A stretch of 36,476 bases of DNA from an uncultured Opitutia bacterium (GTDB lineage Bacteria > Verrucomicrobiota > Verrucomicrobiia > Opitutales > UBA953), in assembly GCA_903889525.1 (NCBI GenBank), contig CAISXT010000116.1, forward strand, positions 1-36,476. The letters are read 5' to 3'. A program made the position numbers and the translations under genes. Below the pieces are notes generated by a model. It made no database searches. It saw only the letters and a list, made by a program, of their open reading frames with translations, and was not told where the DNA came from. Below, in pieces: positions 2,995 to 29,406 of the stretch (its first letter is position 1; the number at the start of each line of letters is the position of its first letter).

Positions 2995-3996
2995 ATGGGA
3001 ATCAGCATGCAAGCGGCGGGCGAAGCCCTCCGAGACCTCGTCAAGGGTCTCAAAGGGCAGAAAGTGGCCGTATTAGGCCATATGCGCCCCGACGGGGATT
3101 GCATCGGATCACAGACCGCACTCTGCCGGATACTCCTGGCCGAAGGCGTTGACGCCCTCTGCGTGAATCGCGATCGCATCCCCCCCAACCTGGTCCCTTA
3201 CGCCGAAGGTGTGAAGTTCGTCAAAGCCGCTGATTATGACGCGACCGACCGCATCGCCGTCACGGTGGACTGTGCCGATGCGTCCCGCGTAGGGACGGAA
3301 CTGCTCAGCAAGTTCCCCCTCGGCATTCTTGCCAACATCGACCACCACGCCTCGAATCCGGATTACGCGCAGACCAACATCGTTGTCCGCGAGGCCGCTG
3401 CGACCTGCCACATCCTCGCCGCCGGAGCACTCGCAGAAGGCCTGGTCGTCGACACCATCACTGCCAAAGCACTGCATTTGGGTATCCTAACCGACACCGG
3501 CCGCTTCTGCTACCGCAGCACCACCGCCGACGTCTTCGCTATCATCGCCGAACTCGTCCGCCGGGGCGCCGATCCGGCCGAAGCGAACTACCGCGTCTTC
3601 GAACAGGAAAGTCGCGGCAAACTCGAGCTCACCCAGCGCTTTCTTAATACTATCCTTTTCCATGAGGACGGGAAAATCTGCTCTGGGGAGCTGACGCAGG
3701 CGGACTACGCCGCGACCGGCACCACGAAGGAAGATAAGGAGGGGCTGGTCGAATTCCCCCGCTCCGTCGAAGGTGTCGAAATTGCCGTACTCATGGAAGA
3801 AGGCGTCGATGGCATCCGCGGCAGCCTACGTGGGCGCGACCCGAAACTTCGCTTAGACCTCTGTGCCGGAAAGCTCAACGGTGGTGGCCACATGCTCGCA
3901 GCCGGCTTCAATATGCAGGGCTGCCGCCTGCCGCAGGACCGCGCGAAGATTCTTGGTATCGTTATCGCCCACTATCGCGAATACTCGGCGAAATGA
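2995..3996 (+). CDS. nrnA: DHH/DHHA1 phosphoesterase, NrnA-like (nanoRNase / pAp phosphatase)
   Basis: This 333-residue cytoplasmic protein belongs to the DHH phosphoesterase family; NrnA members degrade 2-5 nt RNAs and dephosphorylate 3'-phosphoadenosine 5'-phosphate. Metal-binding motifs are DGD at 33-35, D92 in VDCAD, and the signature DHH at 116-118. GILTDTGRF follows, and the DHHA1 substrate domain carries GGGH at about 296-299. I start at ATG 2995 because a TTG-started extension adds 16 residues with no family match; a second ATG at 3007 is also possible. The TGA stop overlaps the truB start (ATGA), and nrnA-truB-ribF is a well-known neighbourhood, usually with rbfA upstream. Here rbfA is missing and nrnA leads the operon, facing clpC. 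Exact substrate is inferred from family. Confidence 0.9.
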   Translation: MGISMQAAGEALRDLVKGLKGQKVAVLGHMRPDGDCIGSQTALCRILLAEGVDALCVNRDRIPPNLVPYAEGVKFVKAADYDATDRIAVTVDCADASRVGTELLSKFPLGILANIDHHASNPDYAQTNIVVREAAATCHILAAGALAEGLVVDTITAKALHLGILTDTGRFCYRSTTADVFAIIAELVRRGADPAEANYRVFEQESRGKLELTQRFLNTILFHEDGKICSGELTQADYAATGTTKEDKEGLVEFPRSVEGVEIAVLMEEGVDGIRGSLRGRDPKLRLDLCAGKLNGGGHMLAAGFNMQGCRLPQDRAKILGIVIAHYREYSAK

Positions 3997-16720: not shown

Positions 16721-19015
16721 TTAAGGCTTAGCTGGCCCGCCCTCTTCAGGGCTGCCGCCAGATGAAACATAGTATTTCTTGTAAGCAGAATCGTAGTAGT
16801 CCGTGTACACTGAGGCCATCCGCTGCGACATACTATTAAGCACCACCCCAAGCAAGGGGGCTTCGGCCTCCTTCAATCGGGCGATGCAAGCCACCGCGTG
16901 GCGGAGATTCACCGCATTATAGCGAACAACGTAAATGAGCCCGTCTATCTTCGGGAGCAGGTGCAACGCGTCCGAAACCGCTCCGAGTGGCGGGGAGTCG
17001 ATGAAGATGCGATCGTAGCGCCCGCGAAGCTCGTCGAGCATGGCGAGGAATTTCGGGTTATTGATCACCTGGGTGGGATTCTTACAGCTCATCCCGACGG
17101 GAAGAACATCAAGGCCAGACGCCACGTCCCTGACGATGGCCTCCTCAAGGGTCGACTCCCCGTTAAACCATCGGCTCAAGCCGCCATCGACGGTGAAGCC
17201 TAGAGAGGGGCCGACGTTGGGCAAACGAAGGTCGGCGTCGATGACCAGCACCCTTTCCGCATGTTGCGCAAAGATCAGGGCGAGATTCGTTGCCACGAAG
17301 GTCTTGCCTTCGCTGGGACGGGTAGAGGTGACGAGGAAGACCTTACTCGTGGCCGCAGCCGGATTGACCTTCATCGAAGAATAGATGGCCCGGATGGCCT
17401 CCACCGCGACGGGGTCCTTGCCTTGGCGTGCCAAGAGCGCTCGGTCGGGCCCAGAGACTTCCGTGACGCGGGGGACGGTGCCCAGCAGTGGCAGCCCCAG
17501 GCCACCTTCGACATGCTTGGCCGACTTAATTCGGTCATCGAGGGTGCCCATGATGACAATCAAAAGGGCGCCGAAAACCACTCCGACGCCGAGACCGAGC
17601 ATCGCATTGAAATAGTAGTTCTTATTAATGGGCTTATCCGAGACCGAGGGCTGATCCAGGATTCGAATCGAAGTGCTGGTGCCTGAAGTTGAGGAACGCA
17701 GCTTGGCTTCCTCATAGCTCAGTTTCATACGAGCGAGGAATTCTTCACTTGCGCGGACTTCCTTGTCCACTCGCTCGAGCTCGATATTAGCCGCCTGGAG
17801 TTTGGAAATCTCCCCTTCCTTGGTTTCCAGATTCTTGACGATCGCTTCGTAACGGGAGCGGGCGTTATCCAACGAGGCCAAGACCCGCTTAACAGCTTGC
17901 ACGACCGCCTCGCGGTGCTCCTTCTGCGTCTCGGCGAGCTTCGCACGTTCATCGATAAGTTTCTGGTTCTTCTCGGTATAGCGCTTTTCCATCGTCCCGA
18001 TACTGATCTTCAACTGACTGAGCGAAGCTAAAGCATTGGCCACCGTGGTGTCCGCCCGAATCTGAGGAATATCGCCGAGGTCCCGGGCCGCCTTCTGGTA
18101 CTCTGTAATCAAAGCCGCGATGATCTCCAATTCGTCCACTTGCTTGCGGGTCTCCTCGCGGTCTTTCACCAGGACGGAGCGTTCGGTGGTGAGGGTGTTA
18201 GTGTCTTTCGCGATGGAGAGTAATTTCTGATTCTTAATCAGTTCGTTCTTTTGCTCGTAGAGTTTTCGGACCTTGTCATCGAGGGTTTCGATCTCAATAC
18301 GGGCCTTCTCCACCAAGGGGTTGGTGATGGTGAGTCGCTCATCTTCGCTGTACTTCGTAATGGCTTCACAAAACAAGCGGGCCACCTGGCGCGAAAGGTC
18401 GCGATTCGGGTGCGTGAAGTCGATATTGATAACGAGGGTCTGGCGCTGCGGATTGATCGCCCGCTGCTTCGCAAAGACTTCCTGTTCAGTCAGTGGGCCG
18501 CTGAAGACATTACCTCCCTGATACGGTTCAAGCACGAGTTTGCGCTCGGCCGTGGTCAGGCGTTTCGAGACTCCTTCGATGATACTGGCGCTCCGCATCG
18601 TTTCGACCGCGGTAAAGAAGTCGTCATTGGAGATGATTTTGAAATTATCTTCGGCCGCCGAGGTGCCGCCGGCGAGATTGGGCGCGAGACGAAAAACTCG
18701 CAGGCGGCCCGTCGCCCGATATTCGGGCATCACATTGTAGGCGAACAACAAACTAAGAGTCGTGAAGACGAGAGCTGAAAGGAGAATCCACCAATACCGC
18801 TCGCGCAGCATGGTGAGATAAGTCCGGAAGGTACCGCCCTCGGCGGCCCCATAGCGACCGTAGCCACCGTAATTACCGTAGCCCTGACCGCCGTAGTTGC
18901 CTGCGCCGTAGCTATTATAGCCTCCCCCATAACTGCCATAGTTACCGTACCCGCGATTCCCTTCAGGCGGACGTTCATTGGATTGGCCTTGAGGGCCGGG
19001 CGAAGGAGTGGCCAT
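16721..19015 (-). CDS. Polysaccharide co-polymerase / BY-kinase (Wzc-like) with Gly/Tyr-rich N-terminus
   Basis: This 764-residue inner-membrane protein combines a Wzz chain-length domain with a bacterial tyrosine kinase. Residues 21-57 are a low-complexity tract of Gly, Tyr and Asn with ten tyrosines. Membrane helices lie at about 74-93 and 469-491, enclosing a periplasmic region with long coiled coils (about 225-450). The cytoplasmic kinase has Walker A STRPSEGKT at 564-572, Walker A' VIDADLRLP at 591-599 and Walker B IFIDSPP at 670-676. The usual C-terminal tyrosine cluster is present (Y737, 740, 741, 745, 748, 749). It follows the Wza-like gene by 6 bp. Export partner and kinase roles are inferred from family; the N-terminal tract is not part of the normal design. 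Confidence 0.94.
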   Translation of the reverse strand: MATPSPGPQGQSNERPPEGNRGYGNYGSYGGGYNSYGAGNYGGQGYGNYGGYGRYGAAEGGTFRTYLTMLRERYWWILLSALVFTTLSLLFAYNVMPEYRATGRLRVFRLAPNLAGGTSAAEDNFKIISNDDFFTAVETMRSASIIEGVSKRLTTAERKLVLEPYQGGNVFSGPLTEQEVFAKQRAINPQRQTLVINIDFTHPNRDLSRQVARLFCEAITKYSEDERLTITNPLVEKARIEIETLDDKVRKLYEQKNELIKNQKLLSIAKDTNTLTTERSVLVKDREETRKQVDELEIIAALITEYQKAARDLGDIPQIRADTTVANALASLSQLKISIGTMEKRYTEKNQKLIDERAKLAETQKEHREAVVQAVKRVLASLDNARSRYEAIVKNLETKEGEISKLQAANIELERVDKEVRASEEFLARMKLSYEEAKLRSSTSGTSTSIRILDQPSVSDKPINKNYYFNAMLGLGVGVVFGALLIVIMGTLDDRIKSAKHVEGGLGLPLLGTVPRVTEVSGPDRALLARQGKDPVAVEAIRAIYSSMKVNPAAATSKVFLVTSTRPSEGKTFVATNLALIFAQHAERVLVIDADLRLPNVGPSLGFTVDGGLSRWFNGESTLEEAIVRDVASGLDVLPVGMSCKNPTQVINNPKFLAMLDELRGRYDRIFIDSPPLGAVSDALHLLPKIDGLIYVVRYNAVNLRHAVACIARLKEAEAPLLGVVLNSMSQRMASVYTDYYDSAYKKYYVSSGGSPEEGGPAKP

Positions 19016-19021
19016 GGAAAA

Positions 19022-19783
19022 TCAGATGCGGCTGTCTTCGACGTAAATCTGGTCTTCGTCGTCGAGAATGAAGTCTGGCTCGTCGCCGGAATCGATGCGC
19101 CGCATGTCCTTCGTGATCACCTGGGTAGCACCGTCGCGGATGCGCTTAACCGCGACATCGGAACGTCGGCCGCGAGGCAGAATCCCACCGGCCATGGATA
19201 AAGCCCGTCCGAGGGTGAGCGTTTCCTCCGGGGGGATGGACACCGGACCGGGCTTTCCAACGTAGCCCGACACATAGACGCGACGCTCAGCGTAGCTCAC
19301 GATACTCATGACCACCTGCGGCTCCTTGAAAAAAACCCGGAACTGCTTGGCGATTTCATCCTGTGCCTCGGTGAGGGTCAGGCCGGCAACTGGAATAATC
19401 TGCTTAAGATAGGGGATATCGACCGTACCGTCGGGATTGATCCGTCGTTCAATCTGCGTATCCGGCTCATTAATGACCAGGACGCGGACGAAGTCGCGCG
19501 GCCGGAGTCGGTAACTATTTCGGCGATCCACTGTTTTGGCAGGAGCAATGGGAGGGGTGGCAGCCGGGGCGGCAGCAGCGGCGGAAGCCGGGGCCTGAGC
19601 CAGCGCCGGGGCTGCGGCGGCAACCGGTGAGGCTCGCGATGGCGCGACAGGAGCAGGGGCGCCTAATATAATGATATTTTCGCTCTCAACGGCAGCACCT
19701 TCACCTGAGTTGGTTGTCACGCACGCGGACAGCAGGAAAGCTACAGCACAGGTGCCGAAGAGGCATTTCAGAGCAGAGAACAT
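19022..19783 (-). CDS. Polysaccharide export outer-membrane lipoprotein (Wza-like, short)
   Basis: This 253-residue protein carries a lipobox (LLSAC, lipidated C21) and then an Ala/Pro-rich linker of about 40 residues (42-83). A Poly_export domain (about 90-165, with YRLRPRDFVRVLV and INPDGTVDIPYL) is followed by one SLBB domain (about 170-220, RRVYVSGYVGKPGPVSI). It would form or line the outer-membrane exit for polysaccharide. It is shorter than E. coli Wza and lacks the C-terminal amphipathic pore helix, as in many export proteins of this class. It lies 6 bp upstream of the BY-kinase gene and downstream of a beta-barrel protein that could provide the actual pore. Confidence 0.92.
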   Translation of the reverse strand: MFSALKCLFGTCAVAFLLSACVTTNSGEGAAVESENIIILGAPAPVAPSRASPVAAAAPALAQAPASAAAAAPAATPPIAPAKTVDRRNSYRLRPRDFVRVLVINEPDTQIERRINPDGTVDIPYLKQIIPVAGLTLTEAQDEIAKQFRVFFKEPQVVMSIVSYAERRVYVSGYVGKPGPVSIPPEETLTLGRALSMAGGILPRGRRSDVAVKRIRDGATQVITKDMRRIDSGDEPDFILDDEDQIYVEDSRI

Positions 19784-19854
19784 GAAGTGAGCGTGGGCCC
19801 GAGGGGGTGCGTAGTCAACAGGACCTCCCCTTTCCTCCCTTTCCCGCCTTCGGC

Positions 19855-21111
19855 TTAGTACCGGAAGGCAGCAGAAAGGGTGAAGGTATTCGAGTTATAG
19901 GAAGAAGCCGGGGCGGACGGGGTCTTCGAATCAGTGAAATTATACCCGGCCTGGAAGCTGATGTGGGCAGTATATTTATAATCTGCCCCGAGGTTGTAGA
20001 CCATCGTGTTAACCTTGACCGCATCGGAGAGTGCGTCGGACTTGGTCGCCGAGAGATTGAAGCTCAGATCTTCGGCGGCGCTGAAGGACAACCCGTAGAT
20101 GTAACTCTGCGTCAAGGATTGCCCATTGGTCGAGGAAGCCGTGATATCTCGGCTGAGGGTCAGCGACTGGGAAATCCGCTCCGTCAGGGCGTGTGAAAGG
20201 CTAACCGAGTAAGACGGGTCGTTCGTATAAGCACCTCCGTCATAATTATAACGGCTATAACCTGCCTTGATGACGCCGTTAAGCTTGCCGGATTCGGTCA
20301 GCTGTCCTTTCATCGTGAGACCGGCAAAATCCTTTTGCATCTGCTGATGGGTGAGGGCTGGGCGCGCAACGTTAGCGGAATGGAAATACGGAGCAGCGGA
20401 GTAATCCGTCACGTCATGGACGAGTGCCACGCCGAAGCTGAGCTTCTCAAAGGCCTGGTAATCCAGGTCAAACGGCATGGACTTCGTGTTAAGTACCGAA
20501 AGCGAATTCGTGTTATAAATCGTCACGCCAGACGCCGCATCGACCTGCGCGGTCGGATTAATGTATTGGTTATAGCTATTCGCATAGCCGAGACCGGCCC
20601 GCATCTTTTCCGTCAGTTTGTAATTAGCCTTGAACGCATGGCTGTAGCTGGCCTGACGAACAAGCGTGGCGCCAAGCGTCGCGCCGCTGACACCCTGCTG
20701 GATGAGATCGTCGTTACGCGCGGTGACGCGATAGGAAGAGTCCAGAGAAAGTGACAGCGGGCCGCCGTCGGCGAAACGAATTGCCGCCGTCAAGGCGTCT
20801 CGGGAATCCTGGAGGTTAGAAAATTCGGACTGATTAAAGTAAATGTAAGTGCGCTTGGCGGAGAGATTGACCGAGAAGGCCGAATCCTTGCCGTACTCGA
20901 GCGAAAGCCCTGGGGTTACGGTCCAATCCGTGGCGGCCTTCTTCGCGGATCCTGAAAATAAATTGTCGGTCACCTCCAGCGCGGCGGTGGAGTCGAAGAA
21001 AATATCGATGTCGTCACCGATTTGAATGAGCGGAGACGAGGGGAGCCAGTTGGCAGCCTGGGCAACCGAGGCGAACGTGAGGAAGGATGCCGCTACGAGG
21101 AAACGAGACAT
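19855..21111 (-). CDS. Outer-membrane beta-barrel protein of the export cluster
   Basis: The 418-residue protein starts with a signal peptide (cleavage after AQA, about residue 19) and otherwise consists of short alternating amphipathic strands with aromatic girdles, such as LSLEYGKDSAFSVNLSAKR and ISFQAGYNFTDS. It ends FTLSAAFRY, with a terminal aromatic residue like a BAM-recognised beta-signal. Counting strands by eye suggests a barrel of about 16-18 strands. Similar barrels sit next to short Wza proteins in exosortase-type and EpsL-type polysaccharide loci. It lies 71 bp upstream of the Wza-like gene and is separated from rpoC by a terminator. Function as a porin for polysaccharide secretion is an inference. 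Confidence 0.82.
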   Translation of the reverse strand: MSRFLVAASFLTFASVAQAANWLPSSPLIQIGDDIDIFFDSTAALEVTDNLFSGSAKKAATDWTVTPGLSLEYGKDSAFSVNLSAKRTYIYFNQSEFSNLQDSRDALTAAIRFADGGPLSLSLDSSYRVTARNDDLIQQGVSGATLGATLVRQASYSHAFKANYKLTEKMRAGLGYANSYNQYINPTAQVDAASGVTIYNTNSLSVLNTKSMPFDLDYQAFEKLSFGVALVHDVTDYSAAPYFHSANVARPALTHQQMQKDFAGLTMKGQLTESGKLNGVIKAGYSRYNYDGGAYTNDPSYSVSLSHALTERISQSLTLSRDITASSTNGQSLTQSYIYGLSFSAAEDLSFNLSATKSDALSDAVKVNTMVYNLGADYKYTAHISFQAGYNFTDSKTPSAPASSYNSNTFTLSAAFRY

Positions 21112-21133
21112 GGGTGTCTAAGGGTTTAGGTAT

Positions 21134-21162
21134 GGGATAGGCAAAATCCCACCCCCCATCAA
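21134..21162 (-). promoter_or_regulatory. Weak promoter candidate for the export cluster
   Basis: On the minus strand TTGATG (21157-21162) and TATCCC (21134-21139) are separated by 17 bp, about 23 bp upstream of the beta-barrel gene start. The -10 matches the consensus at only three positions, so this is a weak call supported mainly by location just after the rpoC terminator. Confidence 0.25.
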
Positions 21163-21193
21163 CCCCCAAACAAGGTAAAACTACCCAAAACAA

Positions 21194-21217
21194 AGACCCC
21201 GCCTGGTGGCGGGGTCT
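21194..21217 (-). terminator. Intrinsic terminator of the rpoBC operon
   Basis: AGACCCCGCC (21194-21203) and GGCGGGGTCT (21208-21217) form a perfect 10-bp stem with a 4-nt loop. On the minus strand the stem is followed by TTGTTTTGGG. It lies 21 bp beyond the rpoC stop and separates the transcription-translation block from the export cluster. Confidence 0.9.
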
Positions 21218-21238
21218 GTTGGTCGATTTAACCTCCCC

Positions 21239-24200
21239 TTAGGCCGGGGTAGGAGTCTGGAAGACGCGGATGCGGCGGTAGGCCGGGAGGCCGGTGCCAG
21301 CGGGGACGAGGTGCCCCATGATCACGTTCTCCTTAAAGCCCGTCAGATTATCGCGCTTAGCCATGGTAGCGGCATCAGTCAGGACTCGGGTCGTCTCTTG
21401 GAAGGAGGCGGCCGAGATGAAGGATTCCGTTTCCAACGAGGCCTTGGTGATACCGAGGAGGATCGGCTCTGATTCGGCAATCTGACCACCGCGCTCGTTA
21501 ATCGAGCGGTTGGCATGGCCAAGCAGAGTACGGTCAACCTGTTCGCCCCAGAGGTAATCGGAATCGCCGGGCTCGGTGATGCGTACCTTGCGGAGCATGC
21601 GGGCCACGATGATCTCAATGTGCTTGTCGTTAATGACAACACCCTGCGTGCGGTAGACTTTCTGAATCTCGGTGATGAGGTAATCCTGGACCTTGGACTG
21701 GCCAAGGATGTCGAGAATATCGTGCGGATCGACGGCACCATCCGTGAGGGCCTGGCCTTGCTTCACCTTTTCGCCAGCGGCAACGATGATGTGCTTTCCG
21801 TGTGGGATGAGGTGCTCCTCTTCGCGACCGATGGAGTCGGAGATGACGAGGCGCTTCTTGCCACGGACAGAAGGTTCGAAACGGACCATACCATCAATCT
21901 TCGCAATCTCGGCGGCGTCCTTGGGAGGACGGGCCTCGAAGAGCTCGGAAATGCGAGGCAGGCCGGCGGTGATATCCTGGGTCTTGGCAGCCTGACGAGG
22001 AATCTTGGCGAGAATGGAGCCGCGGCTGACGCTGTCTCCTTCATTCACTTCGACGCGGGCGCCGGCGGGAATCGAGAAGGACCCAACTTCCTTACCAGAG
22101 GCATTGATGACCTGAATCTGCGGATTCTGTTCGTCGGAGTGCTCAATCACGGACTTGTAGTACGTGTTGTTCGAAGCGTCGCGCTCTTCCGTGAAGGTCA
22201 CCCCGGAGATCATATCCACGAGACGCACCTTACCATCGGAGTTAGCGATAATCGGAGTCGAATTCGGATCCCAGGCCGCGATGAGTGCGCCCTTGTCGAC
22301 AGGCTTACCATCTTCGACGCCGACCAACGAGCCAGCGACGATGCGGTATTCTTCGACGGGCTGGCCGAGTTCATTAAGGATCCGGATGGAACCGTTACCG
22401 TTGACTGCGATAAACTTCCCGTGAATCGGCACCGTGGTAAGGTCGACAAAGGAGGCGACCCCCTTGCTCTTAGCTTTAATTTCAGGGGTCTTGATCTGAG
22501 CTACGCCACCAATGTGGAAGGTACGCATCGTGAGCTGGGTGCCTGGCTCACCGATGGATTGAGCAGCGATGATGCCGACGGCGGTTCCGCGCTCGACCAT
22601 ACGGCCGGTCGAAGGATCGAGTCCGTAGGAAGTCGGCGGAATCGCGTTCACGTTCATGTGCGTGAGCGGAGAGAGCACCTTGACGCGATCGATACCGACG
22701 GTCTCGATGCGTTTGGCAGCGAGTTCGTCGATGAGATGGCCAGCCTTCACGATGATTTCGGAAGGGTTGAGCGGATTGAAGACGTCGTCGGAAGGACAAC
22801 GTCCCACGATACGGTCGGAAAGGGAGACCAGGAGTTCGTCGCCGTCGTAAATCGGGGACTTCCATACGCCGTTAGGCAGATGGACGTGCACGCGATCCAC
22901 ACCTGCATCACGCAACTTAGCAATCAGCTCCTCAGTCAGAGGGGCATCGGCCTTGGCGAGAAGCTTGGCGGCACCGGAAGGATTGGCCACCTCGGCAGCG
23001 AGGTGACGACCGAGGGCTGCGTCGGAGATGGTGATGACTTCGGAGCCCGGAGCCACATCGCGATTGTCGGTGACGATGACATCCATGGCCACGTCGCAAA
23101 GTTTACGGGTCATATAACCAGCGTCAGCGGTCTTCAGCGCGGTATCGGACAGGCCCTTACGAGCACCGTGCGTCGAGATGAAGTACTCCAAGACGGAGAG
23201 GCCTTCACGGAAGGACGAGAGAATCGGGCGTTCGATGATTTCGCCAGACGGCTTAGCCATCAGGCCGCGAGCACCGCAAAGCTGCTTCACCTGGGCCTTG
23301 TTACCACGAGCACCGGAATCCATCAAAACCCATACCGGGTTGATGAGCATACGGTGGGCGTGACGCGGGTCTCCCTTGCGAACACCTGCGACCTTCGCGG
23401 CAGCAGAAAGCGTGCTGTACACCGAGGCAGCAATGGCATCGGTCGCACCGGACCAAGTATCGACGACCTTGTTGCGTCGCTCTTCAGACGTGATCGTACC
23501 AGCTTCGTTCTGGCGCTGGAATTCGCGGACTTTGGCGGTGGCATCGCGTACGAGACCTTCCTTCTCCTTCGGATAGATCATGTCGCTAACGCCGATCGAA
23601 ATGCCGGCCTTAGTGGCAACGCGGAAACCGGTCTCCTTCAGTGCATCAAGGACCGGAATCGAGGCCTCGCGGCCGCAGTACTTGTAGGTCTTGAGAATGA
23701 GGTCGCCGAGCTGCCCCTTCTTCACGGTTTCATTGAAGAAACCGAGTTCGTCCGGCCAGATGGTGTTAAAGATGATACGGCCGACCGTGGTGACAATCGT
23801 ACGGCTCTTTTCATCGCCATGCACGGTCTTACGGCCGCAATCCGGATTCGCGTAGCGCACCCAGTCATGGAGGTGCAACGAACCTTCAGCTTCTGCAAAT
23901 GCGGCTTCCGAAACGGAGCCAAGGACCGGCAGGTGCGTCTTATCGGCCGGCTTGTCGGCCGGCTCCAGCGTCAGGTAGTAAGAACCGAGCACGATGTCCT
24001 GGGACGGCGTGAGAATCGGCTTACCGCTCGACGGAGAGAAGATGTTGTTCGTGGACATCATCAGAAGCTTGCACTCCATGATGGCTTCCAAGGACAGCGG
24101 GACGTGGACGGCCATTTGGTCACCGTCGAAGTCCGCATTGTACGCCGTACAGACGAGCGGGTGGAGACGGATGGCATCGCCCTCGATGAGGATCGGCTCA

Positions 24201-25573
24201 AAGGCCTGGATCGAAAGACGGTGCAGCGTCGGGGCGCGGTTCAGGAAAACCGGGTGACCCTTCGTGACTTCTTCAAGGATGTCCCAAACTTCGGGCTTCT
24301 TCTGCTCGATGTGCTTACGGGCGCCGCGAACGGTGTGGGCGAAGCCGAGTTCCTTGAGTCGACGGATGATGAAAGGTTCGAAAAGAACCAACGCCATCTT
24401 CTTGGGAAGACCGCACTGGTTGAGTTTGAGCTCGGGCCCGATGACGATGACGGAACGGCCCGAGTAGTCGACGCGCTTACCGAGAAGATTCTGGCGGAAG
24501 CGGCCGTGCTTACCCTTCAGCATGTCCGAAATAGATTTTAGCTGACGGTCGCGGTCCTTGACCGGCTTACCGTGGCGACCGTTGTCGAGCAGCGCATCGA
24601 CAGCTTCCTGGAGCATGCGCATTTCATTATGGATGATGACGTCCGGCGTCTTCATTTGAATGAGCTGCTTCAGGCGATTATTACGATTGATGACGCGACG
24701 ATAGAGATCGTTAAGGTCAGAGGTCGCGAAGCGGCCGCCTTCGAGGGGAACCAACGGACGGAGGTCCGGCGGGATGACGGGGAGCACCGTCAGAATCATG
24801 TGCTCGGGGCGCTTGCCGGAAGCCAGGAATCCCTGGATAATCTTCATGCGGCGAGCGATCTTCTTCTTAATCTGCTTGGAGCGGGTGGAGCGGAGCTGGT
24901 CGCGGAGATTCTCCACCGTGGCGGCGAGATCCATCTTCTTGAGCAGCTGCTGGAGAGCTTCGGCGCCCATGCGGGCCTTGAAAGCGTCGGGGCCGTGCTG
25001 TTCGACGGCACGGCGGTAGGATTCCTCGTCGAGGAGTTCCTTTTCTTCCATGCCCGTGGCGCCCGGGTCGACGACCAGATACTTCTGGTAGTAGATGACC
25101 TGTTCGAGCTGGCGGGTGGTCATGTCGAGCATCAGCGACAGACGGCTGGGCATGCTCTTCAGGAACCAAATGTGGGAGACGGGAATCGCGAGGCGGATGT
25201 AGCCCATGCGTTCACGGCGGACGCGGGAGACGGTGACTTCAACGCCACACTTGTCGCAGACGACGTCCTTATATTTAACCTTTTTGTACTTACCGCAGTA
25301 GCACTCGTAATCACGGACAGGTCCGAAGATGCGCTGGCAGAAAAGACCGTTCGGCTCCGGCTTGAACGAGCGGTAGTTGATGGTCTCAGGGCTCTTAACT
25401 TCCTTGAGGCCTTTAACCTTTCGGTTGCCGTGTTCGTCGAGTTCGTCGAGGAACTGTTCGCCCGTCCACTGGACGATCTCCTCGGGAGAGGCGATCGAGA
25501 TGGAGACGAAGTCGAAGGACTGTTCCTTCGTTTCGTTGGCGGTGAACTCGGGGGTGTGCTCCGGGTGAATCAT
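21239..25573 (-). CDS. rpoC: DNA-directed RNA polymerase subunit beta' with altered second zinc site
   Basis: Beta' forms the catalytic half of RNA polymerase. From ATG 25573 it has 1444 residues; a longer frame to 25660 overlaps rpoB and lacks homology. The N-terminal zinc site is intact (C91, C93, C106, C109). The catalytic Mg motif NADFDGDQM is at 479-487 and the trigger-loop region [15 protein letters not shown] at 1006-1020. The second zinc site, normally four Cys around E. coli 814-898, is missing: the usual DCGT becomes DNRDVAPG (835-842), and the later three Cys positions become H972, P979 and S982. Residues about 854-900 look like an extra copy of the module at 923-969. The frame is open and flanking motifs are normal, so this is not a simple frameshift. 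Confidence 0.97.
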
Positions 25574-25608
25574 GTTTGTTAAAGATCGGGAGTTTAGTCG
25601 GTGGTCGT

Positions 25609-28600
25609 TCAGTTGCGGTCCGGAGTGCCGGTGCCAGTGCCAAGTCGGACATCCAAGCACAAGCCCTGCATTTCCTTCATGAGAACGTTGAATGACTGGG
25701 GAGTGCCGCTGACGAGGGTGTTATCACCCTTGACGAGCTGCTCGTAGATTTTGGTACGTCCGGCAACGTCGTCGGACTTAACCGTGAGGAGTTCCTGTAG
25801 CGTGTAGGCGGCACCGTAAGCCTCGAGGGCCCACACTTCCATTTCGCCGAAGCGCTGGCCACCGTACTGGGCTTTACCGCCCAGGGGCTGCTGCGTAATC
25901 AAGCTGTAGGGACCGGTCGCACGAGCGTGAATCTTGTCCGCGACAAGGTGATTCAGCTTCATCATGTAGATGTAGCCGACCACGACGTCCTGGTCGAAAG
26001 CTTCGCCAGTATGGCCGTTGATGAGCATCGCCTTGCCGGTTTCTGGCAGTTCGGCTTGCTTGAGATATTCGCGAATCTGCTTCTCGGGAATGCCGTCGAA
26101 GATGGGGGTGGCCATCTTCAGGCCGAGCTTGGAGCAAGCCCAACCGAGGTGCGTTTCGAGAACCTGACCGACGTTCATGCGAGAAGGAACGCCGAGCGGA
26201 TTAAGGCAGATGTCGACGGGGGTACCGTCGGCGAGGTAAGGCATGTCTTCTACTGGCACAATGCGGGCGACGACGCCCTTATTGCCGTGGCGACCGGCCA
26301 TCTTGTCGCCGACCTGGATTTTCCGCTTGGTCGCGATGTAGACCTTAACATTTTTGATCGCGCCGCCTTCATCGATGCCCTGTTCAATGGCTTCGACCTT
26401 ACGGGCGCGTTCCTGCTCAAGTTCGTCAAAGCGGCGATGATAGCCGTCGACAATCTGGCGGATCTTCTGCTTCACGGGGGAATCGTTCATCTCGATGGAT
26501 CGAGAGACCGACGCCAGGCGGCGCAGCAGGGTCTTGGTAATCTTGCGGTTGGCCGGGATGATAGCCTCGCCGGTCTCGGAGTTCTTAACGTCGAGCGGAA
26601 TCTTCTCGCCGAGCAGGATATTCGAGAGGGACTCCGTCATCTCTTCGCGGAGGCGGGAATCAGCGGTGCGGTACTCTTCGTTAACCTTCTTAAGAGCCCG
26701 GCGCTGATCGTTAGGCGAGAGGCGGCCGTCGTCCTTATCGGTACGAGAGGAAACCTTTACATCCATGATGATGCCAGAGATACCGGAGGGTACGCGGAGG
26801 GAAGTATCCTTAACGTCGCGAGCCTTCTCACCGAAGATGGCGCGGAGGAGCTTCTCTTCAGGAGCCAAGTCGCCTTCGCTCTTCGGGGTAATTTTCCCGA
26901 CGAGAATGTCGTCCGGCTTAACTTCGGCACCGATGCGGATAACCCCGTCGCGGTTGAGGTTGCGCAGGGCTTCCTCACCGAGGTTCGGAATGTCACGCGT
27001 GATTTGTTCTGGCCCAAGTTTGGTGTCGCGAGCGGTGACTTCGAACTCCTCAATGTGAACCGAGGTGAAAACATCGTCCGTCAGCATCCGCTCGGAGAGC
27101 AGGATCGCGTCTTCGAAGTTGTAGCCGTTCCACGGCATGAAGCCGACTAGGACATTGCGTCCAAGGGCGAGCTCGCCCTTATCGGTAGCGGCGCCGTCAG
27201 CGATGATGTCACCTAGTTTCACCTTGTCTCCGCGGCGGACGAGGGGGCGCTGGTTGAAGCACGTGGACGAGTTGGTCTTGAGGAACTTGCGGAGGTCGTA
27301 GACGTAGATGCCCTTCGAAGGCTCGCTCTTGAACTTCTTATTCTCAAGTTGAGCCGCGACTACTTCACCGTCCTTGGTGACGACGATGCGGCGCGAATCT
27401 GCAGCGGCGACGATGCCTGGACCCTCGGAGACGATCACCGTCTTAGAGTCGATGGCGACGCGACGTTCGAGGCCGGTTCCCACGTATGGGGCTTCGGTGA
27501 CGACGAGCGGCACGCCCTGACGCTGCATGTTAGAACCCATCAGCGCGCGATTAGCATCGTCATGCTCCAGGAAAGGAATGAGGGCGGCGGCAACAGAAAC
27601 AACCTGTTGCGGAGAGACGTCCATGTAGTCGACGTCTTCGGGGTCGACCTCGAGGATGTCGTCGCGGAATCGGACGGTGACCTTGCCCTTCAGGCGGCTG
27701 GCGTCATCGAGTTCTGAGTTAGCCTGAGCGACCTTAAATTTCTCTTCCTGGTCCGCCGTCATGAACTCGACCTGGCTGGAGACCTTGCCGCGCACCACCT
27801 TGCGGTACGGGGCTTCGATGAAGCCGAACTCGTTAATGCGGGCGTAAGTGGACAACGAATTGATGAGACCGATGTTCGGACCTTCCGGGGTCTCGATTGG
27901 GCAAATGCGCCCGTAGTGGGAAGGATGAACGTCGCGGACTTCAAAGCCCGCACGGTCACGGTTGAGGCCGCCGGGCCCGAGGGCGGAGAGACGACGCTTA
28001 TGCGTCAGCTCAGCCAGAGGATTGATCTGGTCCATCAGCTGAGACAGCTGGCTTCGTGCGAAGAATTCGCGAATCGCGTTACCGAAAGGCTTCGGGTTGA
28101 CCAGCTTCTGCGGGGTGATGGAGTCGACGCTCTGGTCGTACTCGTTGATACGAGCCTTGACCGTCTTAACGACGTTCTTCAGGCCAGCACGACACTGATT
28201 CGCGAGTAATTCACCGACGTTGCGGACGCGGCGGGAGCCAAGGTGATCGATGTCATCGATGGCACCATCGCCTGCGCTAAGTTTACAAAGCAACTTGGTC
28301 GCCTCAACGATGTCCTCAGGCGTGATTGTGCGAGTATCAAGTGAGACGTTGAGGCTGAGCTTCTGATTCAGCTTATAGCGACCGACGCGACCGAGGTCGT
28401 AACGCAGCGGATCCTGGAACAGGCGCTGCATGTGGGCGCGGGCGCCCTTGACGTTGACGGGTTCGCCGGGGCGAAGCTTGCGGAAGATTTCCTTAAGCGC
28501 TTCTTCTTCGTTCCGGACAGCACCGATATCTTTACGCAGGGAAAGAATGATCGAACCATTATCGAAGGCGGTATCGAAAACGCCGAACTTCTGCTTCGGG

Positions 28601-29406
28601 AGTTGTTTGTGGATTTCCTTCAGCGTCTCCCGGGAGAGTTTATCGTACTGCTTGGCGACGACCTTGCCGGTCTCGACGTCGACAATCGGATCGGCGTAGA
28701 CGAGGTGGGAGAGCTCTTCCGGATCCAGCTCAAGGGCGGCCTTGGCGGTCAATTCGCGGTGCTCGTAGAAAAGGGCAAGGATGTCCTTGTCGTCCTTATA
28801 ACCGAAGGCGCGCAGCAAGGTCGTGACGAGGAACTTACGGCGACGGCGGCGGCGATCGAGGTAGACCCAGAGCAAGTCATTCTGGTCGAACTGAACTTCG
28901 ATCCAGGTGCCGCGGTCGGGGATAATCCGAAAAGCATGCAGCATCTTGCCGCTCGTGTGAGCGGACTCTTCGAAGCAGATACCAGGGCTGCGGTGCAGCT
29001 GGGAGACGACGACGCGCTCGGCGCCATTGACGATGAAAGAGCCCCGATCGGTGATCATGGGGATTTCGCCCATGAGGATTTCTTCGTCCTTAAAGGCACC
29101 CTTTTCGCGAAGGCGGAGCTTCAGCATCACGGAGATCGCGTAAGTCGTGCCTTCGCGGATGCATTCAAGTTCGGTCTGCTTAGGCAGGACCAAGCCGTAC
29201 TCGAGATACTCGAGACGGAAGTTGCCGTTGTTGCTCTCCACCGGGAAGGCCTCGCGGAACACGGCGTCGAGCCCGACGTTCTTGCGGGCGGACGCGGTCT
29301 CGTCCAATTGCAGGAAATCGTTGAACGAGAAGATCTGGTTCTCGATCAGGTTGGGCGGAGGGATTACTTCGCGTAGTTTACCGAAGTTTTTGCGCTCTTG
29401 AGGCAT
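25609..29406 (-). CDS. rpoB: DNA-directed RNA polymerase subunit beta
   Basis: The beta subunit is 1265 residues and begins [10 protein letters not shown], in place of the longer N-terminus of E. coli. The rifampicin pocket lies at about 449-475 and reads [20 protein letters not shown] in its core. [13 protein letters not shown] is conserved, with the counterparts of H526, R529 and S531 unchanged. Ile replaces Asn518 and Ala replaces Ser522 in E. coli numbering. The C-terminal part carries the GNKGV and GRHGNKG region and ends with [21 protein letters not shown] as usual. It is 35 bp upstream of rpoC and follows a strong hairpin terminator after rplL, so its transcription may depend on readthrough or on a promoter in the 95 bp after that hairpin. 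Confidence 0.98.

Follow-up and report, generated by a model that had tools for sequence, protein, structure and literature searches.

Introduction

The closest described relative of the protein considered here is Wzc of Escherichia coli, a PCP-2a BY-kinase (PDB entries 7nhr and 9r62). According to the accessible parts of the reports on Wzc, its tyrosine tail enters the active site of a neighbouring subunit and is phosphorylated stepwise, and the octamer disassembles (PMC8285477; PMC11986026; PMC12881504), tail phosphorylation being the driver of disassembly in the first of these reports. The regulatory tyrosine cluster described in this literature, as far as its accessible text goes, is the C-terminal tail. 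In Lactobacillus rhamnosus, Wzd, the co-polymerase (modulator) subunit of the Wzd/Wze system, is reported to be tyrosine-phosphorylated itself, so that phosphorylation at sites other than the kinase tail has a precedent; nine scattered tyrosines are concerned, and the available portion of the report describes no Gly/Tyr tract (PMC4340800). The structures of Staphylococcus aureus CapAB (3bfv) and E. coli Etk (3cio) are kinase-domain constructs and are thus uninformative on any N-terminal segment ahead of the membrane. Furthermore, CapA and CapB are two polypeptides, whereas the protein described here is one.

Low-complexity domains of the FUS type are characterized by the [G/S]Y[G/S] motif. They resemble the segment described below in being disordered, with Tyr residues spaced by Gly or Ser; however, they belong to eukaryotic RNA-binding proteins with no homology to it, and condensation of the segment is putative.

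In this study, a Gly/Tyr-rich N-terminal head on a Wzc-like kinase of an uncultured Opitutia bacterium was analyzed in a 36,476-nucleotide stretch of DNA (contig CAISXT010000116.1, positions 1 to 36,476), which is referred to as the window, and was compared with related kinases from the genus, order, class and phylum. The original prediction, made from the window alone, had proposed that the head could be a second phosphorylation array or a condensation-prone segment. In the open-access literature, as far as its text was accessible, no description of a Tyr-rich or disordered N-terminus of a BY-kinase was found, which is not proof of absence, and no phosphoproteome of the order was found there either.

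Materials and methods

Orthologues and paralogues of the kinase were gathered from the genus, order, class and phylum. The 246 loci with a match gave 201 distinct bodies, of which 197 kinases entered the tree; L055, L085, L086 and L186 had no usable body and were dropped before the body set was formed, and four of the 201 bodies, including L208 and L225, were not placed in the tree because their C-terminal end was incomplete. The tree was built on the body alone, excluding head and tail. A protein was called headed if, by our own tract score, which penalizes Phe, its tract had 5 or more Tyr and Gly plus Tyr made up 50% or more of it. For a measure less dependent on this score, the whole head was counted, beginning at the start codon and ending 14 residues short of the membrane anchor motif, so that the tract score affects only the choice of start. 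Close relatives were compared as 37 disjoint pairs, in which Tyr/Phe differences are undirected. The motif YGxYGxYG was scanned as a DNA pattern with the reversed pattern as the control.

Results and discussion

The kinase and its head

The features of the window on which the analysis rests are as follows.

16721..19015, minus strand: Wzc-like polysaccharide co-polymerase/BY-kinase (PCP-2a), 764 amino acids (ORF, Pfam, TIGR01007, Foldseek)
18956..19015, minus strand: short Pro/Ser/Glu-containing leader of the head, residues 1-20 (translation; variable among relatives)
18845..18955, minus strand: Gly/Tyr-rich head, residues 21-57, 10 Tyr (ORF translation; pLDDT below 50 over residues 1-61)
18788..18826, minus strand: conserved juxtamembrane stretch, residues 64-76, RTYLTMLRERYWW (68 sequences compared)
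18734..18796, minus strand: first predicted transmembrane helix, residues 74-94 (AlphaFold2 helix; topology by Wzc analogy)
17540..17617, minus strand: second predicted transmembrane helix region, residues 467-492 (AlphaFold2 model)
17297..17326, minus strand: Walker A, residues 564-573, STRPSEGKTF (GK[ST] motif in 134/134 headed proteins)
17219..17248, minus strand: Walker A', residues 590-599, LVIDADLRLP (motif comparison)
16988..17011, minus strand: Walker B, residues 669-676, RIFIDSPP (motif comparison)
16769..16807, minus strand: C-terminal tyrosine tail, Y737 to Y749, 6 Tyr (Y737, Y740, Y741, Y745, Y748 and Y749)
19022..19783, minus strand: Wza-like Poly_export/SLBB protein, directly upstream of the kinase (Pfam Poly_export, 58.3 bits)
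19855..21111, minus strand: predicted outer-membrane beta-barrel protein, upstream of the SLBB gene (Pfam OMP_b-brl weak, below cut-off; conserved in the genus)

The protein had been taken for a BY-kinase from its letters, and profile and structure searches agree. Pfam Wzz (26.3 bits against a cut-off of 25.5) and AAA_31 (38.8 bits, the AAA_31/ParA fold) both match above their cut-offs, as does TIGR01007, the NCBIfam model of the polysaccharide-biosynthesis tyrosine autokinase domain (128.3 bits against 108.05). NF008568, the Wzc equivalog model, lies far below its cut-off (127 against 1068), so the kinase is not E. coli Wzc itself. The predicted model and Foldseek matches to full-length Wzc place a Wzz-type periplasmic domain between the two membrane helices, in agreement with Pfam. 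The best Foldseek hits are Wzc structures, the likeness extending over the whole chain (E 3.5e-29) with an identity of 16-18% in the eight best structural alignments; the kinase domain also superposes on CapAB (TMt 0.93) and Etk (TMt 0.82-0.84). Like Wzc, the window protein has the kinase motifs, a C-terminal tyrosine tail and a Wza-like partner. The motifs and tail needed for a cycle of the E. coli Wzc type are intact, and the protein is, judged from these matches, a complete Wzc-type tyrosine autokinase of the Wzc/PCP-2a family, with autokinase activity and an octameric state predicted.

Where it departs from Wzc is the N-terminus, for which the accessible Wzc literature mentions no tyrosine-rich head. 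Residues 21-57 of the ORF (RGYGNYGSYGGGYNSYGAGNYGGQGYGNYGGYGRYGA) comprise 16 Gly, 10 Tyr, 4 Asn, 2 Ser, 2 Ala, 2 Arg and 1 Gln, so that the earlier description of a segment made almost only of Gly, Tyr, Asn and Ser with ten tyrosines holds for 32 of its 37 residues, and its tract score was reached by 0 of 20000 whole-protein shuffles. In the AlphaFold2 model pLDDT falls below 50 in residues 1-61 and again in the end of the tail, residues 739-764; the head is thus predicted to be disordered. It precedes the first predicted membrane helix, and by analogy with Wzc it is cytoplasmic, as had been proposed; its ten tyrosines should be on the same side of the membrane as the kinase. Between head and helix lies the juxtamembrane stretch, in which E72 and W75 are invariant among the 68 sequences compared. 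The usual C-terminal cluster, likewise anticipated, is also present; in the same 68 sequences Y748 is invariant and Y737, Y745 and Y749 are conserved in at least 90%. The kinase thus files under a known family, and the head itself appears to be a new feature.

Gene neighbourhood

Six nucleotides separate the stop codon of the SLBB gene from the ATG of the kinase. Of the headed loci, 130 have 900 nt or more of upstream sequence, and a Wza-like homologue lies just upstream of the kinase in 129 of these. In the SLBB protein of the window the signal region is followed by a low-complexity linker rich in Ala and Pro, encoded with imperfect 12-bp and 14-bp repeats (window 19483-19594).

In the window rpoB-rpoC is immediately followed on the same strand by the outer-membrane protein, SLBB and kinase genes, at a distance of 127 nt from rpoC (window 19022-29406). 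A fixed linkage to rpoBC was considered and rejected: rpoC was found at four headed loci (L032, L034, L037 and L051; 73-98% identity, taken as the same genus) and at none of the other headed loci, among 67 with at least 4500 nt upstream. Being seen only in four close relatives, it is local context and not part of the system. The same genome holds four matches to low-molecular-weight tyrosine phosphatases and one to an initiating sugar transferase.

Distribution of the head

In the 197-kinase tree the orthologues of the order form one clade of 136 members with a support of 100, and the tract is found in 134 of them. The two remaining members are L185, with a short YGYGAY form (3 Tyr), and L052, which is cut off by the end of its contig. 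The original prediction had named a search for the same head in related Wzc proteins as a check and absence from all relatives, together with no expression, as a refuting result; nearly all of the examined order orthologues carry the tract. The tree also includes 23 BY-kinase paralogues from the order, all without the tract, and 38 proteins from outside the order, of which 36 lack a Tyr-rich head and two, L187 and L201, have one. The head therefore marks one clade, and the headless relatives in the tree number 59. L201 stands among headless kinases, which points to an independent origin of its head.

For a further 19 order loci, orthology was judged from the score and the juxtamembrane motif instead of the tree. 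Four of them are truncated before the head, 14 have a tract with 4 or more Tyr, and one (L349, G101:C6) is frameshifted inside the tract. The head part of L349 reads as Ala/Val/Met, as a Gly/Tyr repeat would in another frame, and the sequence is back in frame before the membrane helix, the gene being split again further on; either the tract is prone to frameshifts or these are sequencing errors. In the phylum, Tyr-rich heads were found on seven further loci (L257, L259, L260, L261, L263, L264 and L266) out of 20, which prove existence and not frequency because ten of the 20 had been picked for early-starting alignments. Among them, the BY-kinases L260, L261, L263 and L264 have Tyr/Gly/Pro-rich heads of their own and are candidates for independent origins.

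Two contigs titled Akkermansia muciniphila (L032) and Polynucleobacter meluiroseus (L047) encode proteins 98% and 76% identical to the Opitutae kinase, so these record names are probably wrong. Several order genomes of about 1 Mb (G041, G042, G061, G062, G065 and G070) gave no kinase match at E 1e-60; the kinase may have been lost there on genome reduction.

The head is an addition and not a replacement, since the kinase motifs (Walker A, A' and B) and a tail with 4 to 10 Tyr are kept in all 134 headed proteins. The idea that the head substitutes for a lost tail was accordingly rejected: the last 35 residues of some headed proteins contain no Tyr, but every complete headed protein has a tail cluster, followed by a longer C-terminal extension. 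The numbers of Tyr in head and tail are weakly and negatively correlated (Spearman -0.27, uncorrected for phylogeny).

Composition and selection

From one relative to another the head varies greatly in sequence and length, but its composition is steady. Across the 134 tracts (4577 residues) Gly makes up 49.6% and Tyr 27.3%; against 1251 Tyr there are 3 Phe, and Trp is missing altogether. In the bodies of these proteins Phe outnumbers Tyr, at 3063 to 2192 (F/Y 1.40). As the tract score itself penalizes Phe, the whole head was also counted, with 1278 Tyr and 18 Phe. In the 37 pairs, differences at Tyr that involve Phe make up 0 of 22 in the head and 40 of 60 in the body (Fisher p 1.2e-8); part of the 40 must be Phe-to-Tyr, since the differences are undirected, whereas no exchange of either kind is seen in the head. 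The head thus keeps Tyr and excludes Phe.

Selection is visible in the same pairs, in which dN/dS is 0.163 for the head and 0.062 for the body. Identical Gly and Tyr residues are encoded by differing codons at 347 of 879 sites in the head and 652 of 1623 in the body; codons differ as often in the one as in the other, and it is the protein that is conserved and not the DNA. The composition of the head is therefore selected at the protein level, as read from these comparisons, and its exact sequence and DNA repeat are not conserved. A composition retained over a very long time without conserved letters suggests a second, hitherto undescribed control segment.

These figures bear on whether the head is made at all. 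The original prediction saw no obvious alternative ATG before the membrane helix; this was mistaken, as Met69 (window 18809-18811) is in frame just before the helix and is present in many relatives of the genus. A start at Met69 would, however, discard a segment whose codons are under purifying selection, and the ATG that opens the ORF closely follows the stop codon of the partner gene. This alternative was rejected, and we regard it as scarcely credible.

Growth of a functionless, mutation-driven tract by repeat slippage would account for heads rich in insertions and deletions (gap residues amount to 5.4% of the length of the head and 0.016% of that of the body) and for the near-identical repeat units in the heads of L025 and L106. 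It does not account for a tract kept order-wide in one orthologue and absent from its 23 paralogues there, nor for codons that diverge as in the body, and was already disfavoured on these grounds; we consider it very improbable. The DNA of the window copy had been described as repeated and liable to change in length by slippage. An array is indeed present, but only a weak one of 9 bp (3.6 copies, 69% matches) with mixed Gly and Tyr codons, and slippage in this copy is unsupported; the part of that claim that stands is that head length changes between species far faster than that of the body.

The same rapid change in length, together with a constraint weaker than that on the body, would suit a flexible tether that is merely soluble and disordered, or a docking tail that binds a glycosyltransferase, flippase, polymerase loop or other partner in the cytoplasm. 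However, a plain tether needs neither 27% Tyr nor near-zero Phe, and at paired head sites Tyr is kept in 306 of 317 cases against 67% for Ser and Asn; no docking partner was found. A tether or docking role is, in our estimation, improbable.

Association of the motif with BY-kinases

In its own genome YGxYGxYG has three matches, all in the head, and the reversed control has none. In 87 genomes of the order there are 38 matches, 32 of which fall by coordinates in the heads of these kinases. The other six lie in the tail of another BY-kinase (L300, match site GYGNYGYGQYGGYGYGYNYKYTY), in a 202-codon frame (L284) and in four frames of 2 to 74 codons; the reversed control is more numerous than these six, so the matches outside heads are at or below background. 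The paralogue L300 (G077:C14) has a C-terminal tail that much resembles the head, GYGNYGYGQYGGYGYGYNYKYTYQKKYQKHY. Several headless BY-kinases have Gly/Tyr-rich stretches in their tails as well, which ties such sequence to tyrosine kinases and is no proof of phosphorylation.

Phosphorylation array or sticker segment

The best explanation, which we hold tentatively and at a little under even chances, is that the head is a disordered cytoplasmic multi-tyrosine regulatory array at the N-terminus, besides the usual tail and most likely phosphorylated like it. A second multi-tyrosine array within reach of the kinase in the octamer is the simplest reading of the head. The near-absence of Phe, the near-restriction of the motif to BY-kinase genes and the recurrence of Tyr-rich heads on other BY-kinases all fit such an array. 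The strict choice of Tyr over Phe fits phosphorylation; the known acceptors of the tail are likewise poor in Phe (871 Tyr and 27 Phe in the tails of the 134 headed proteins).

Several observations count against phosphorylation. The head tyrosines are flanked by Gly (at position +1 in 1006 cases), whereas those in the tails of the same proteins are flanked by Tyr, Asp, Ser and Thr. The exclusion of Phe belongs to a general shortage of hydrophobic residues (9 Val, 5 Leu and 2 Ile in the 4577 tract residues), on top of the bias of the score noted above. Furthermore, 59 relatives in the tree do without a head.

The main rival is that the heads self-associate as stickers (Tyr) and spacers (Gly, Ser and Asn), clustering octamers in the membrane or recruiting partners independently of phosphorylation. 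The predicted disorder and a composition kept while length drifts are consistent with this, as is the spacing of Tyr, commonest at 3 residues and with a variance below that of shuffled tracts in 97% of the 134, although duplication of repeat units also yields even spacing. As Tyr is reported to outdo Phe as a sticker in condensates (PMC12677899), the bias towards Tyr does not by itself point to phosphorylation. A generic sticker, however, need not be nearly confined to BY-kinase genes, and tracts go down to 5 Tyr, a minimum set by the threshold, with 3 in L185; these are few for condensation alone, though an octamer would multiply them by eight. A sticker role by itself strikes us as possible but unlikely. 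The two roles are compatible, as a sticker segment could be dissolved by phosphorylation.

For the phosphorylated array, the following mechanism may be envisaged. In the octamer, eight heads would dangle next to the kinase ring, each attached to a first membrane helix. As long as they are unphosphorylated, they would hold subunits or neighbouring octamers together through Tyr and Gly contacts; the kinase would then phosphorylate the heads in trans, as it does with the tail, and the added charge would loosen the assembly, which a low-molecular-weight tyrosine phosphatase would reset. The response would be set by the number of tyrosines and not by their exact place. Phosphorylation of the heads, contact between them and an effect on polysaccharide export are inferred parts of this proposal.

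A bolder proposal, in which our confidence is limited, is that a two-ended tyrosine code operates in the BY-kinases of the order. Its N-terminal end would be a Gly/Tyr array that evolves fast, is phosphorylated in trans and acts through the number of its Tyr, tuning the clustering of the export machine independently of the tail; on other BY-kinases of the phylum, similar heads would have originated several times over. If the order does keep a second tyrosine cluster at the N-terminus of these kinases, the regulatory logic of capsule and exopolysaccharide export would vary between bacterial groups, and there would be a bacterial kinase that carries a sticker-like low-complexity domain in the same polypeptide and may itself be able to switch this domain off. 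Such a kinase would offer a clean system for studying how tyrosine phosphorylation tunes low-complexity domains.
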